In this document: piece after piece, positions 2,461 through 59,220 of the stretch | Position numbering within the stretch: position 1 is the first letter of the stretch | Layout: each line of letters begins with the position of its first letter | Assembly: GCF_900115685.1 (NCBI RefSeq) | Contig: NZ_FOXJ01000001.1 | Location: forward strand, 529,796 to 593,795 | Length of the DNA stretch: 64,000 nt | Direction of reading: 5' to 3' | Origin: Variovorax sp. 770b2 | GTDB taxonomy: Bacteria > Pseudomonadota > Gammaproteobacteria > Burkholderiales > Burkholderiaceae_C | Program-made: the position numbers and the translations under genes | Notes under the pieces: model-generated | What the model saw: the letters and a program-made list of their open reading frames with translations, nothing else | Database searches by the model: none | What the model was told of the DNA's origin: nothing

Positions 2461-3545
2461 CACCCCGCCACCAGCGCATCGACGCGCTGCTGCGCCGGCC
2501 CGATGTCGCCGAACGCGTTCTGCACCCATGCAGCATCGTGGTAGCTGGGCAGGTAGCGCTCGCCCGAATCGCACAGCAGCGACAGGATCGACCCCTGCCG
2601 CCCGGCCGCGCGCAGCTCCTGTGCCACCGCCAGCATGCCGATGAAGTTGGTGCCCGTCGAAGGCCCGACCTTGCGCCCCAGCAGCGCCGAGAGCGCATGC
2701 ATCGCCGCCACCGAATCGAGATTGGGCACCTCGATCATGCGATCGACCAGCGTGCGGATGAAGCTCGGCTCCACGCGCGGCTGCCCGATGCCTTCGATGC
2801 GCGAGCCCACGGCCGTGAGCGTCGCGTCGCCCGTGCGGTGATAGGCCGAGAACACCGAGCCCTCGGGGTCGGGCACGCACACCTGCGTGTCGTGGCAGCG
2901 GTAGCGCAGGTACCGGCCGATGGTCGCGCTGGTGCCGCCGGTGCCCGCACCCACCACGATCCATTCGGGGATCGGATGGCGCTCCCGCGCCATCTGCTGG
3001 AACATGCTCTCGGCGATGTTGTTGTTGCCGCGCCAGTCGGTCGCGCGCTCGGCATACGTGAACTGGTCCATGTAGTGGCCGCCCGTGCGCTCGGCCAGCG
3101 CGCGGGCTTCCTCGTACACCTGTGCGGCGTGGTCCACGAAGTGGCAGCTCGCGCCGTAGAAGGCGATCTGCGCGATCTTCTCGGGCGAGGTGCTGCGCGG
3201 CATCACCGCGATGAAGGGCAGGCCCAGGAGCCGCGCGAAGTAGGCCTCGCTCACCGCCGTCGATCCGCTCGAAGCCTCCACGATGGTCGTGCCCTCGCGC
3301 ACCCAGCCGTTGCACAGTGCGTAGAGAAAGAGCGAGCGCGCGAGCCGGTGCTTGAGGCTGCCGGTCGGGTGGGTGGATTCGTCTTTCAGGTACAGGTCGA
3401 TGCCGGCTGCCGCGAGCGCGGGCAGGGGGAGCGGGATCAGGTGCGTGTCGGCGCTGCGCTGGTAGTCGGCTTCGATGCGGCGGATGGCGCCGCCGAGCCA
3501 GCCGCTGCAGGAGGCGCCAGGGAGGAAGGAGGGTGTGGGCTGCAT
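2460..3545 (-). CDS. PLP-dependent cysteine synthase-family enzyme (Cds1-like)
   Basis: The 361-residue protein has the fold-type II PLP enzyme signature. [11 protein letters not shown] places the Schiff-base lysine at K65, a substrate loop SSGST lies near residue 93, a glycine-rich phosphate-binding segment GAGTGGTSA near 198, and a second conserved loop STGTNF near 295. The sequence resembles the L-cysteine desulfhydrase (Cds1) branch more than biosynthetic CysK/CysM, so breakdown of cysteine to sulfide, pyruvate and ammonia is the likeliest reaction. The assignment between synthase and desulfhydrase is inference. It is the first gene of a two-gene unit with the lipocalin-like protein and diverges from the penicillin-acylase gene across 94 bases. 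Confidence 0.8.
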
Positions 3546-38113: not shown

Positions 38114-38117
38114 ATTT

Positions 38118-38280
38118 CGCGCTCTCTTTCATCCGGACTGTGACCGTCGGCTTCGGAATCGCACCGAAATCTGCTGACCCCGTTGCCTGCTTGCGCAGGC
38201 CTCGGGCGCTCGCGGGCTTGTGCAACCTTTCGATCGCCATCACCGCCGGTGGGGAATTGCACCCCGCCCTGAGAACGCTT
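38118..38280 (-). ncRNA. FMN riboswitch (RFN element)
   Basis: Read on the minus strand, the conserved RFN blocks occur in order: AGGGCGGGGTGCAATTCCCC, ACCGGCGGTGATGG, GTCAGCAGA, GGTGCGATTCCGA, AGCCGACGGTCACAGTCCGG and ATGAAAGAGAG. The element sits about 100 bases upstream of ribH on the same strand and is the known FMN sensor of riboflavin genes. The remaining bases to the next gene (38281-38457) show nothing recognisable. Confidence 0.95.
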
Positions 38281-54104: not shown

Positions 54105-55424
54105 ATGCCCCAGACCCTCACAGAACAACTGAGCCGCGAACAGCAGATTGCCGCCCTCGAAAAAGACTGGGCCACCAATCCGCGCTGGAAGGGCATCAAG
54201 CGCGGCTACAGCGCAGCCGACGTCGTGCGCCTTCGCGGCTCCTTCCCCATCGAGCACACGCTGGCCCGCCGCGGCGCAGAGAAGCTCTGGGACCTGGTGA
54301 ACAACGAGCCCTACGTCAACTGCCTCGGCGCACTCACCGGCGGCCAGGCGATGCAGCAGGTCAAGGCTGGCGTGAAGGCCATCTACCTGTCGGGCTGGCA
54401 AGTCGCCGCCGACAACAACAGCTACGCCTCGATGTACCCCGACCAGTCGCTGTACCCGGTGGACTCGGTGCCGACGGTGGTCGAGCGAATCAACAACACC
54501 TTCCGCCGCGCCGACGAGATTCAGTGGTCCAAGAACGTGAACCCCGGCGACAAGGGCTACACCGACTACTTCGCGCCCATCGTGGCCGACGCCGAAGCCG
54601 GTTTCGGCGGCGTGCTGAACGGCTTCGAACTGATGAAGGCCATGATCAAGGCCGGTGCCGGCGGCGTGCACTTCGAGGACCAGCTCGCTTCGGTCAAGAA
54701 GTGCGGCCACATGGGCGGCAAGGTGCTCGTGCCCACCACCGAGGCTGTGCAAAAGCTCATCGCGGCCCGCATGGCTGCCGACGTCTGCGGCACCCCGACA
54801 CTCGTGATCGCCCGCACCGATGCGGAAGCGGCCGACCTGATCACCAGCGACTACGACGAGAACGACAAGCCCTTCATCACCGGTGAGCGCACCGCCGAAG
54901 GCTTCTATCGCACGAACAAGGGCATGGACCAGGCCATCAGCCGCGCCGTCGCCTACGCCTACTACGCCGACCTGGTGTGGTGCGAAACCGGCACGCCCGA
55001 CCTCGAGTTCGCCCGCAAGTTCGCCGAAGCCGTGCACAAGGTGCACCCGGGCAAGATGCTGGCCTACAACTGCTCGCCGTCGTTCAACTGGAAGAAGAAC
55101 CTCGACGACGCGACCATTGCCAAATTCCAGAAGGAACTGGGCGCCATGGGCTACAAGTACCAGTTCATCACGCTGGCCGGCATCCACTCGATGTGGTTCA
55201 ACATGTTCGACCTGGCTCAGGACTACGTGGCACGCGGCATGTCGGCCTATGTCGAGAAGGTGCAGGAGCCCGAATTCGCAGCGCGCGACCGTGGCTACAC
55301 CTTCGTGTCGCACCAGCAGGAAGTGGGCACGGGTTACTTCGACGAAGTGACCACCGTGATCCAGGGCGGCAAGTCCAGCGTCACCGCGCTGACCGGCTCG
55401 ACCGAAGAAGAACAGTTCCACTGA
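54105..55424 (+). CDS. aceA: Isocitrate lyase
   Basis: The protein has 439 residues, standard for the short bacterial form. The catalytic cysteine lies in [14 protein letters not shown] near residue 205, with [11 protein letters not shown] for metal and [13 protein letters not shown] and [14 protein letters not shown] for substrate. It splits isocitrate into succinate and glyoxylate, allowing growth on acetate and fatty acids. CACGGAGTGACC before ATG 54105 gives the start. It is monocistronic: malate synthase is not adjacent, a terminator follows, and the AT-rich upstream region with two palindromes suggests tight regulation. Confidence 0.97.
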
Positions 55425-55456: not shown

Positions 55457-55483
55457 AAGCCCGGCCATGCGCCGGGCTTTTTT
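55457..55483 (+). terminator. Intrinsic terminator of aceA
   Basis: AAGCCCGGC (55457-55465), loop CATGC, GCCGGGCTT (55471-55479) followed by four more T residues, 33 bases after the aceA stop. Confidence 0.93.
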
Positions 55484-55548
55484 GCGGGCAGCCCGGGCGC
55501 GGCGCGGGGGCTGGAGAACGCCGGCGCCACGGCCTGGGCGGCAGAAGT

Positions 55549-55554
55549 TAGAAT
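55549..55554 (+). promoter_or_regulatory. Putative -10 box of the thrS operon promoter
   Basis: TAGAAT matches the -10 consensus in five of six positions and lies about 45 bases upstream of the leader reading frame. No convincing -35 hexamer is visible 16-18 bases upstream. Confidence 0.4.
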
Positions 55555-55599
55555 TGCCGCTCTTCTGTACTCAACAAGAGCGAGAAAGGCACCTTGGTT

Positions 55600-55674
55600 A
55601 TGACACCGCGAACTACTCCGCAAGGATCGAGCGGCTTTTTCTTCTTCGAAGCGATCGAAGGAAAGGGCCGGTAG
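55600..55674 (+). CDS. Putative Thr/Phe leader peptide of the thrS-pheST operon
   Basis: A 24-codon frame starts ATG at 55600 and stops at TAG 55672-55674; GAGAAAGG about ten bases upstream is a possible ribosome site. It begins M-T-P-R-T-T-P, with Thr codons at 55603, 55612 and 55615, and contains four consecutive Phe codons (55636-55647). The frame is followed by an antiterminator-like segment and an intrinsic terminator before thrS. This is the layout of amino-acid attenuators such as E. coli pheM upstream of pheST. The operon encodes both the Thr and the Phe tRNA synthetases, so both codon sets make sense. The call rests on sequence logic only. Confidence 0.6.
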
Positions 55675-55675
55675 C

Positions 55676-55738
55676 CCGCGCTCGCTGGTTTCTTCCAGCT
55701 CCCAACCAAGCAAAGCGCGGCATCCACCGCGCTTTTTT
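55676..55738 (+). terminator. Attenuator: antiterminator segment and intrinsic terminator before thrS
   Basis: Terminator: AAAGCGCGG (55712-55720), loop CATCCA, CCGCGCTTT (55727-55735) plus T run to 55738. The sequence CCGCGCT occurs a second time at 55676-55682, just after the leader stop codon, and can pair with AGCGCGG (55714-55720) instead of the terminator's own 3' arm. CGAGCG (55628-55633), before the Phe codons, can pair with CGCTCG (55679-55684) and block the antiterminator. A small hairpin, GCTGG/CCAGC (55684-55699), lies in between. Confidence 0.75.
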
Positions 55739-55760
55739 GTTTTTCTCCCGAGGTTTTCAC

Positions 55761-57668
55761 ATGATCCAGATCACGCTCCCCGACAACTCGCGCCGCGAGT
55801 TCCCAGGCCCGGTTTCGGTGGCCGAAGTGGCCCAGTCCATCGGCCCTGGCCTCGCCAAGATGACGGTGGCCGGCAAGGTCGACGGCCGGCTCGTCGATGC
55901 CAGCGACGTCATCGACCATGACGCCAAGCTGCAGATCATCACGCCCAGGGACGACGAGGGCCTGGAGATCATCCGCCACTCCACGGCCCACCTGGTCGGC
56001 CATGCGGTCAAGCAGCTCTACCCGACGGCCAAGATGGTGATCGGTCCGGTGATCGACGAGGGCTTCTACTACGACATCTCCTACGAGCGCCCCTTCACGC
56101 CCGAGGACATGGCCGCGATCGAAGCGCGCATGCGCGAGCTGATTGCGCAGGACTACGACGTCGTCAAGAAGATGACGCCACGCGCCGAGGTGATCGAGGT
56201 CTTCAAGTCGCGCGGCGAGGACTACAAGTTGCGCCTGGTCGAGGACATGCCCGACGAACAGGCGATGGGCCTTTACTACCACCAGGAATACGTCGACATG
56301 TGCCGCGGCCCGCACGTGCCGAACACGCGTTTCCTGAAGGTCTTCAAGCTCACGAAGCTGGCCGGTGCGTACTGGCGCGGCGACGCCAAGAACGAGCAGC
56401 TGCAGCGCATCTACGGCACGGCCTGGGCCGACAAGAAGCAGCTGGACCAGTACATCCAGCGCATCGAGGAAGCCGAGAAGCGGGACCACCGCAAGCTGGG
56501 CAAGGAGCTCGACCTGTTCCACATCGACGAAGTGGCGCCGGGCGTGGTGTTCTGGCATCCCAAGGGCTGGGCGATCTGGCAGCAGGTCGAGCAGTACATG
56601 CGCGGCATCTACCGTGACACGGGCTACTGGGAAGTGAAGGGCCCGCAGATTCTGGACAAGAGCCTGTGGGAGAAAACGGGCCACTGGCAGAACTATCGCG
56701 ACAACATGTTCACGACGGAGTCGGAGAAACGCGAGTACGCGTTGAAGCCGATGAACTGCCCGGGTCACGTGCTGATCTTCAAGAGCGATCTGCGCAGCTA
56801 CCGTGATCTGCCGCTGCGCTACGGCGAGTTCGGCCAGTGCCACCGCAACGAACCGAGCGGCGCGCTGCACGGGATCATGCGCGTGCGCGGCTTCACGCAG
56901 GACGACGGGCACATCTTCTGCACGGAAGACCAGATCCTCGACGAATGCATCGCCTACACGGAACAGCTGCAGAAGGTCTACGCCGACTTCGGCTTCACGG
57001 ACATCCTCTACAAGGTCGCGACGCGGCCGGAGAACCGCGTCGGCTCCGACGAACTGTGGGACAAGGCCGAGCATGCGGTGATGGAGTCGCTGCGCCGCTC
57101 GGGCGTCGACTTCGTCATCTCGCCGGGCGACGGCGCCTTCTACGGTCCGAAGATCGAATACACGTTGCGCGACGCCATCGGGCGCCAGTGGCAATGCGGC
57201 ACGATGCAGGTCGACTTCAACACGGCCGAGCGCCTGGGCGGCGAGTACGTGACGGAATCGAGCGGCCGTGCGCACCCCGTGATGCTGCATCGCGCGATCG
57301 TCGGCAGCCTGGAGCGCTTCATCGGCATGCTGATCGAACACCACTCCGGCGCGATGCCCGCATGGCTCGCTCCGGTGCAGGTGGCGGTGCTCAATATCAG
57401 CGAAGGGCAGGCCGATTACGCTCGAGACGTGGCGAAAGCGCTGCAAAATCAAGGGCTTAGGGTTCAGTTGGACCTGCACAACGAAAAGATTACGTATAAA
57501 ATACGGAAGCATTCGTTGCAAAAGCTCCCTTACATCCTCGTCGTGGGCGACAAGGAAAAGGAAGCAGGTGCCGTCGCAGTGCGCGCCCGGGGCAATCAAG
57601 ACCTCGGAGCAATGTCCCTCGAATCGTTCGTGCAACGGCTCGTCCAGGATGTTGCCGACAAGCGTTGA
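55761..57668 (+). CDS. thrS: Threonyl-tRNA synthetase
   Basis: The protein has 635 residues with all domains: N-terminal TGS domain (residues 1-61), editing domain with [16 protein letters not shown] and CRGPHVPNT, class II catalytic core with the zinc cysteine in [11 protein letters not shown], motif 2 [22 protein letters not shown] and motif 3 [18 protein letters not shown], and an anticodon-binding C-terminus. It charges tRNA-Thr and removes mischarged serine. ATG 55761 follows CGAGGTTTTCAC and lies 22 bases after the leader terminator. It is the first structural gene of the translation operon. Confidence 0.98.
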
Positions 57669-57778: not shown

Positions 57779-58393
57779 ATCGCTACTGCATTTCGCGACC
57801 GCCGCCACCGCGAGGAACGCCAACACCGCCTGAACCGGGAAATCATGGCCCCGGAAGTCCGCCTTGTAGGCCCGGAAAACGAGCCATTGGGTGTTATGAG
57901 TCTCTCGGAGGCCTTGCGCCTCGCCGGCGAGGCCGATGTGGATCTGGTGGAGGTCGTCGCGGCGGCCAATCCGCCGGTATGTCGCCTGATCGAGTACGGC
58001 AAGTTCAAGTACCACGAGCAGAAAAAAGCGGCCGAGGCGAAGTCCAAGCAGAAGGTCATCGAGGTCAAGGAAATCAAGTTCCGGCCCGGTACCGACGACG
58101 GCGACTACAACATCAAGATGCGCAACATCAAGCGCTTTCTTGAAGAGGGCGACAAATGCAAGATCACGCTGCGCTTCCGCGGCCGCGAGATCACGCACCA
58201 GGAGCTCGGTCTGGCACTCTTGCAGCGCATTCGCGATGAGTTGGGCGACCTGATCATGGTCGAGCAGTTCCCGAAGCTGGAAGGCCGGCAGATGATCATG
58301 ATGATCGCGCCGGGCCGCAAGAAGGCCGGTGGCGGTGCTCCCAAGCCGGCAGCAGACGCTGCGCCGGCAACGGCGCCCGCGGCAACCGCTTGA
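57779..58393 (+). CDS. infC: Translation initiation factor IF-3, probable AUC start
   Basis: The protein has 204 residues. The N-domain has [29 protein letters not shown] and the C-domain [31 protein letters not shown], followed by a non-conserved alanine/proline tail. The first ATG in frame (57845) would cut off the conserved basic start [17 protein letters not shown]. The only suitable codon upstream is ATC at 57779, placed 8 bases after AAGGA, with an in-frame stop at 57764. Rare AUU/AUC/AUA starts are known for infC, where IF-3 rejects its own start codon and so limits its own synthesis. IF-3 binds the 30S subunit. Confidence 0.9.
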
Positions 58394-59135: not shown

Positions 59136-59186
59136 TTCTGCACAGCAGGGTGTTGCCTCCGGGCAGCTTCCTGCGCCCACGGCTCA

Positions 59187-59220
59187 AGGGCTGGCGCTTG
59201 AAAAGGCTCCAGCTCTTTTT
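59187..59220 (+). terminator. Terminator-like hairpin before pheS
   Basis: AGGGCTGG (59187-59194) pairs with CCAGCTCT (59209-59216) with one G-U pair; loop 14 bases; followed by TTTTT. It stands between rplT and pheS in the middle of the operon and could reduce or modulate readthrough. No separate leader reading frame is evident. Confidence 0.5.

Follow-up and report, generated by a model that had tools for sequence, protein, structure and literature searches.

A probable threonine-sensing attenuator in the thrS leader of Variovorax sp. 770b2 and its relatives

Layout of the thrS leader

The window, a 64,000-nucleotide stretch of Variovorax sp. 770b2 DNA, carries an open frame that we take to be thrS from the family's known sequence and from a first-pass annotation, preceded by a short leader frame and an intrinsic terminator (Table 1). 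That annotation had described a 24-codon frame with three Thr codons, two of them adjacent, and four consecutive Phe codons. Re-reading the sequence directly confirmed this frame on the + strand, with Thr at codons 2, 5 and 6. The same annotation had pointed to an antiterminator-capable segment and a strong terminator before thrS, and both are indeed present: CCGCGCT occupies 55676-55682 and the terminator 5' arm AGCGCGG occupies 55714-55720, with 25 nt between the end of the terminator stem and the thrS ATG at 55761.

Table 1. Features of the thrS leader region, in window coordinates.
Feature	Position	Strand	Basis
TAGAAT, likely -10 element of the leader promoter	55549-55554	+	sequence read; spacing in relatives
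AAAGG, Shine-Dalgarno-like, 10 nt before the leader ATG	55585-55589	+	sequence read; position in relatives
CTTGGTT, 5' strand of long-range helix P1	55593-55599	+	aligned pair counts
Nearly invariant core GGTTATGACACCGCGAAC around the leader start	55596-55613	+	substitution count in relatives
Leader ORF, 24 codons (ATG 55600, stop TAG 55672-55674)	55600-55674	+	sequence read; frame statistics
Region 1, CGCGAACTAC, Thr codons inside; can pair with 55671-55680	55607-55616	+	RNAalifold; duplex strength against shuffles
Putative regulatory Thr codons 5 and 6 (ACT ACT)	55612-55617	+	codon conservation
Hairpin P3, within the frame; 5' arm 55632-55641 (Phe codons 13-14), 3' arm 55661-55670	55632-55670	+	paired cells
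Four Phe codons, 13-16	55636-55647	+	sequence read; relatives
GTAGCCCGCG, partner of region 1, stop codon inside	55671-55680	+	RNAalifold; duplex strength against shuffles
Region 2, antiterminator strand CCGCGCTCGCT; can pair with 55709-55720	55676-55686	+	paired cells in alignment A1
Hairpin P4, GCTGG/CCAGC	55684-55699	+	aligned pair counts
AACCAAG, 3' strand of P1	55704-55710	+	aligned pair counts
Intrinsic terminator, stem 55712-55735, T-rich tail	55712-55745	+	terminator scan; found in relatives
thrS, proposed regulated gene	55761-57668	+	open frame; relatives annotated by similarity to it

The window leader folds more stably than its dinucleotide shuffles (z -2.74, 2/200 shuffles as low). 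A terminator scan of 1001 bases returned two terminator-like sites, the leader's among them, against 1.1 expected from shuffles, which is weak evidence taken alone. Rfam covariance models, the T-box and the enterobacterial Thr leader included, gave no match in the leader at the gathering threshold, and the four sub-threshold matches obtained between 55400 and 59400 at E up to 5 include neither an attenuator family nor the T-box.

At the window leader, the promoter prediction tool reported nothing above its sigma-70 threshold. Among 171 distinct upstream sequences, the commonest spacing places TANAAT 34 nt before AAAGG (47/171) and most of the others are near it, with TANAAT absent from 20. AAAGG itself begins 14-16 nt upstream of the ATG in 164/171 sequences, a figure biased upward because AAAGG counted as a bonus in the extraction of leaders.

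Conservation of the leader in relatives

Allowing up to three mismatches, we matched the core motif in 194 of 250 family genomes, some of them by chance, and did not match it in 56. A shorter core motif was matched in 96/100 genus genomes and in 86/86 of those of high quality; these counts include chance matches, extra hits at three mismatches being common. Leaders were then taken from 238 sources, gamma-proteobacteria included, wherever GGTTATGACACCGCG occurred with at most two substitutions and AAAGG upstream, or with no substitution in the absence of AAAGG. The rule is biased to the motif, and GGTTATGACACCGCG is substituted in only 3 of the 180 rows extracted, or 179 leaders once the duplicate of the window is set aside; L176 and other sources failed it.

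All 179 leaders have Thr at codons 2 and 5 and read TPRT over codons 2-5, as is largely fixed by the search motif. Thr also occupies codon 6 in 146 of them and codon 7 in 68. Codons 6-9 lie mostly outside the motif; in the 126 leaders that do not belong to the window's group, Thr makes up 226 of the 504 residues there. The stop motif was sought irrespective of frame, and in 45/48 leaders of the window's group its distance from the ATG is divisible by three, the stop motif being absent from the 49th; the distances from stop to terminator are spread 14/14/21 over the three frames in these 49 leaders. A permissive scan finds a terminator in 177/179 leaders, with none in L055 and L229. One of these calls, in L177, looks wrong and was later dropped, leaving 176 leaders for the pairing tests.

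The relatives' leaders share with the window a short frame with a putative ribosome site, conserved codons cognate to the gene that would be controlled (Thr at 5 and 6, enriched over 6-9) and, by the permissive scan, an intrinsic terminator between leader and gene. Judged on sequence, the Thr half of the leader is the conserved sensor. Two individual frames end unusually: in L006 a TGA within the hairpin precedes the usual stop, and in L154 the frame bypasses the usual stop and extends to 48 codons.

Alternative pairings and ribosome position

RNAalifold applied to 48 leaders yields the terminator conformation, with six region 1 pairs in the consensus. On average, the best duplex that region 1 forms with the spacer outranks those of shuffles in strength, and the partner of region 1 differs among leaders yet stays complementary (GTTCGCG in L078, AGTCGGCCGCGG in L038). 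The partners of the 1:2 and 2:3 pairings overlap in 93% of the 176 leaders, compared with 58% when spacers are shuffled, and the first base of region 2 lies no more than 8 nt from the stop codon in 77%, compared with 30% in shuffles; the stop codon thus tends to lie at the start of the antiterminator strand. Across 87 representatives, the joint pairing energy has a mean rank of 0.18 among shuffles, against an expected 0.5 (t-test p ~2e-23, calculated over rows that are related). For the 2:3 duplex the mean z is -1.18 outside the genus and -1.70 inside it, and for the 1:2 duplex -1.05 and -0.82, respectively. Leader by leader the signals are modest, and a 1:2 or 2:3 duplex reaches the 5% level of its shuffles in only 17-50% of cases.

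The aligned helices show different patterns of change. The antiterminator helix has 89.5% of its cells paired in alignment A1 with zero double-sided changes, and standard pairs are no commoner there than in shuffles (106/500 as high). Hairpin P4 has 97.1% of cells paired, and two of its five pairs are changed on both sides. When the whole structure is scored, its pair counts are above those of shuffles by each of five measures, and on one of these 2/500 shuffles are as high. The possible long-range contact between CTTGGTT and AACCAAG that had been noticed in the window (P1) is kept in most of 48 leaders, its two parts having 76.6% and 85.3% of cells paired and its two outer pairs showing double-sided changes. 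A further pairing, of CGAGCG (55628-55633) with CGCTCG (55679-55684), had been put forward as the one that frees the terminator; both sequences are present in the window leader, but both halves occur in only 4/48 aligned leaders, and we rejected this pair as the protector. As a set, the candidate antiterminator and protector pairings are mutually exclusive more often than in shuffles, with an antiterminator that lacks covariation in A1.

We also modeled how ribosome position would affect folding. With a 13/16 footprint, the antiterminator openness that this fold model predicts for a Thr stall exceeds the value for a ribosome at the stop codon by more than 0.2 in 47/48 genus leaders and 78/128 others, the reverse contrast appearing in no genus leader and in one other. 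A smaller footprint lowers the count outside the genus to 59/128, with three reversed. Relative to no ribosome, the Thr stall is higher by 0.2 in 24/48 genus leaders and 61/128 others. Overall this thermodynamic model favors Thr over stop, but for the window itself it does not distinguish Thr from Phe.

From the conserved frame, its codons, the terminators and these possible pairings, all present in the DNA, we infer a promoter, translation, stalling, termination and a direction of response as follows. When Thr-tRNA is plentiful, the ribosome would reach the stop codon and cover region 2, and the terminator (55712-55735) would form. When Thr-tRNA is short, the ribosome would stall at codons 5-6 atop region 1, near the 5' strand of P1; region 2 would then be free to pair with the terminator 5' arm, and transcription would continue into thrS. 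In an untranslated leader, region 2 would be sequestered by pairing 1:2, which would leave the terminator free to form. Sequence comparison and fold models together make it very probable (about 0.85) that the thrS leader acts as a ribosome-mediated attenuator, responding to charged tRNA-Thr and governing thrS together with the genes reached by read-through.

The Phe run, hairpin P3 and the genes downstream

Four consecutive Phe codons and the presence of pheST downstream invite a wider reading, proposed by the first-pass annotation, in which the attenuator is mixed: codons 13-16 would be a second regulatory set that couples the operon to Phe-tRNA charging. Of 48 aligned leaders, 25 have at least three consecutive Phe codons in the hairpin, and by handle or name these 25 belong to the window's genus. 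Species that lack the run include L122 and L128 (MTPRTTTTALSGASFQGSRR). On a thrS tree in which 35 of 37 rows were placed (L124 and L130 left out), the Phe-run label needs two changes, with a bootstrap range of 1-2. The L154 leader has a Phe run elsewhere, in its read-through frame.

The run coincides with the 5' arm of hairpin P3, in which CGGCUUUUUC pairs with GGAAAGGGCCG. Over 48 rows, 92.4% of P3 cells are paired, compared with 40-71% when the arms are slid, and 0/500 shuffles are as high. The hairpin is also kept in the 23 rows without the run, with 85.6% of cells paired versus 35-61% slid; it is weak in L125 and L008, which keep 4 and 5 of the 11 aligned pairs. Five of the 11 pairs are changed on both sides, but sliding by 1-3 columns gives 3-6 such pairs, so this count proves little alone and the case for P3 rests on the paired-cell share and the shuffles. 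Within the run clade the P3 arm is almost invariant, and because it hardly varies, structural and codon constraint are inseparable there. Across the alignment, P3 conservation fits a structural constraint better than a codon constraint, and the Phe codons that occupy its pyrimidine arm in part of the window's genus are probably incidental. As a caution, an eye-catching run of codons may simply reflect an underlying RNA stem.

In the window, the simple fold model predicts that a Phe stall leaves the antiterminator open (0.73), as do stalls at the Thr codons (0.76-0.77) and the absence of a ribosome (0.71). In the 34 leaders with FF anywhere, however, predicted openness is 0.40 at Phe codons versus 0.73 at Thr and 0.49 with no ribosome.

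The arrangement downstream also argues against coupling to pheST through this leader. The rplT-pheS gap holds a terminator-like hairpin with a T run (window 59186-59217, -19.6 kcal/mol, z -2.13, 9/200 shuffles as low), and similar hairpins are visible by eye in relatives; pheST may therefore not depend simply on the thrS leader. pheS follows soon after rplT both in L003 and L004, which have the Phe run, and in L005, L006 and L008, which do not. We saw no Phe-rich leader by eye in the window's rplT-pheS gap and set a pheM-like leader before pheS aside for the window.

We rejected mixed sensing as the main reading, the Phe run being limited to part of one genus, and we consider it improbable. 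What stands of that proposal is Thr stalling, supported by conservation, frame and exclusive pairings. The alignment of relatives that had been suggested as a check divides in the same way: terminator and Thr codons are conserved and the Phe codons are not.

Further along the operon, infC appears by eye to start with ATC (window 57779-57781), as it does in L003, L005, L006, L055 and L078. E. coli infC starts with AUU, likewise a non-standard codon.

A nearly invariant core around the leader start

Positions -4 to +14 of the leader carry 12 substitutions in 171 distinct sequences, synonymous sites included, and eight of these fall at position 12; the sample was selected by this very motif, with mismatches allowed. 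The core is stricter than the attenuation mechanism needs. A start-codon hairpin, GGU-UAUGAC-ACC, is present in the consensus fold, and its invariance bars a covariation test. It is conceivable, though we would not favor it, that the core GGUUAUGACACCGCGAAC does more than supply codons and region 1. It might fold into a start-codon hairpin that gates leader translation, or be the target of a trans-acting factor such as ThrRS as a second input, with the Phe run perhaps a weak third input in part of the genus. tRNA mimicry by the core is not supported, as the base before its GG varies.

A different use of the core would be autoregulation, with the core as an RNA operator bound by ThrRS as in E. 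coli thrS. ThrRS is the next product, the core is nearly invariant at the nucleotide level, and Pseudomonas-group thrS genes have a UUUGGUA-loop motif next to their start (27/27 loci). However, inspection by eye of the window's terminator-thrS interval shows no such motif, the base before GG varies, and Thr codons are enriched beyond the core; we regard this explanation as very unlikely. That the leader is a plain terminator of the upstream gene, whose frame ends at 55424, beside a chance small frame is hardly credible: the terminator exists, but another hairpin with a T run follows the upstream gene at ~55457-55484 (seen by eye, absent from the terminator scan), and leader conservation and frame statistics stand against it.

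Relation to known systems

The classical amino-acid attenuators are the enterobacterial trp, his, thr, leu and pheA leaders. The proposed thrS attenuator resembles them in its short leader frame with regulatory codons, its 1:2, 2:3 and 3:4 pairings, its terminator and its stop codon beside region 2. Unlike them, it stands upstream of a gene for a tRNA synthetase and not of a biosynthetic operon, has few Thr codons, a nearly invariant start-codon core and no Rfam match and, in the window's genus, contains an extra in-frame hairpin. In E. coli, the pheM leader just before pheS senses Phe and attenuates pheST. The likeness there is a synthetase operon attenuated through a leader peptide, whereas the window leader lies before thrS and conserves Thr codons.

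Other bacteria control thrS by different means. E. coli thrS has a translational operator at its ribosome site that is bound by ThrRS. This operator and the similar-looking Pseudomonas motif share with the window leader the principle of feedback on thrS; the E. coli operator is a protein-binding element at the thrS ribosome site, and none was seen by eye in the window. The Firmicutes thrS T-box binds tRNA directly. Like the T-box, the window leader is proposed to sense tRNA charging at a terminator; unlike it, the leader would need translation, and the window has no T-box match.

The mechanism is well known, and among the matches listed in the open-licence PMC literature no paper reports a beta-proteobacterial thrS leader or its attenuation. 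A Thr leader across the window's family and others, with an apparently different one in Lysobacterales, would be a third solution for thrS control and would bring peptide attenuation to an operon in which a synthetase gene stands with those for IF-3, L35 and L20. The section of PMC3766115 relevant here states that four Rfam attenuator motifs may originate in gamma-proteobacteria, with targets that are mostly biosynthesis enzymes (PMC3766115); a thrS leader would widen the picture given there of attenuator origin and targets.

Putative threonine leaders and other thrS loci beyond the family

We examined 60 thrS upstream regions from other families. A short frame with at least three Thr in codons 2-9 occurs in 15 of them, compared with two on the reverse strand and an average of 1.7 in shuffles, although one of the 15, L295, looks unlikely. 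Examples include MSFRTTTTRER (L273), MFRTSTTTQS (L282), MFRTCTTTWC (L304) and MPRTRTTTGFFSRRG (L321). A looser Thr-frame criterion was dropped as it did not discriminate (26/60 versus 25 on the reverse strand and 18.8 in shuffles). Among 28 further loci outside the family, for which at least five thrS starts were left unplaced, eight look similar by eye (L242, L247, L254 and L258-L262).

Model R1, run against 200 genomes of the order, matched 41 at E up to 0.001. A thrS place was missing for 11 of these; in the other 30, 17 matches lie directly before thrS (four in the window's family, the window included) and 13 do not. Since 13 of 30 lie away from thrS, weak R1 matches are often due to chance.

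In Lysobacterales, an 8-codon frame of the form M[S/R/D]TT.... precedes thrS in 9/11 loci (L011, L012, L014, L017, L018, L020, L022, L026 and L034), and GAGCGTGCGACATG surrounds its start in the loci whose upstream sequence was inspected; L019 (MSTINV) and L016 differ. By its sequence, this frame looks like another Thr leader. The window ThrS is 76-77% identical to those of L011 and L012 (Xanthomonadaceae/Luteimonas) and 68-73% identical to those of several Comamonadaceae (L024, L033, L045 and L078), with L010 (77%) and L009 (84%) as exceptions. A past exchange of thrS is possible.

In Pseudomonas and Stutzerimonas, UUUGGUA with complementary flanking arms lies beside the thrS ribosome site in all 27 loci surveyed, for example L051 at 2931-3003; the survey covered 27 of 30 loci, with L064, L072 and L074 left out. 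To judge by its sequence, the motif resembles the tRNA-Thr anticodon arm. Many loci outside the family have a tRNA-Val(GAC)-like sequence, identified by motif match, directly before the thrS leader, as in L273, L282 and L304. Elsewhere in the window, an FMN riboswitch lies at 38117-38280 on the - strand (103.9 bits).
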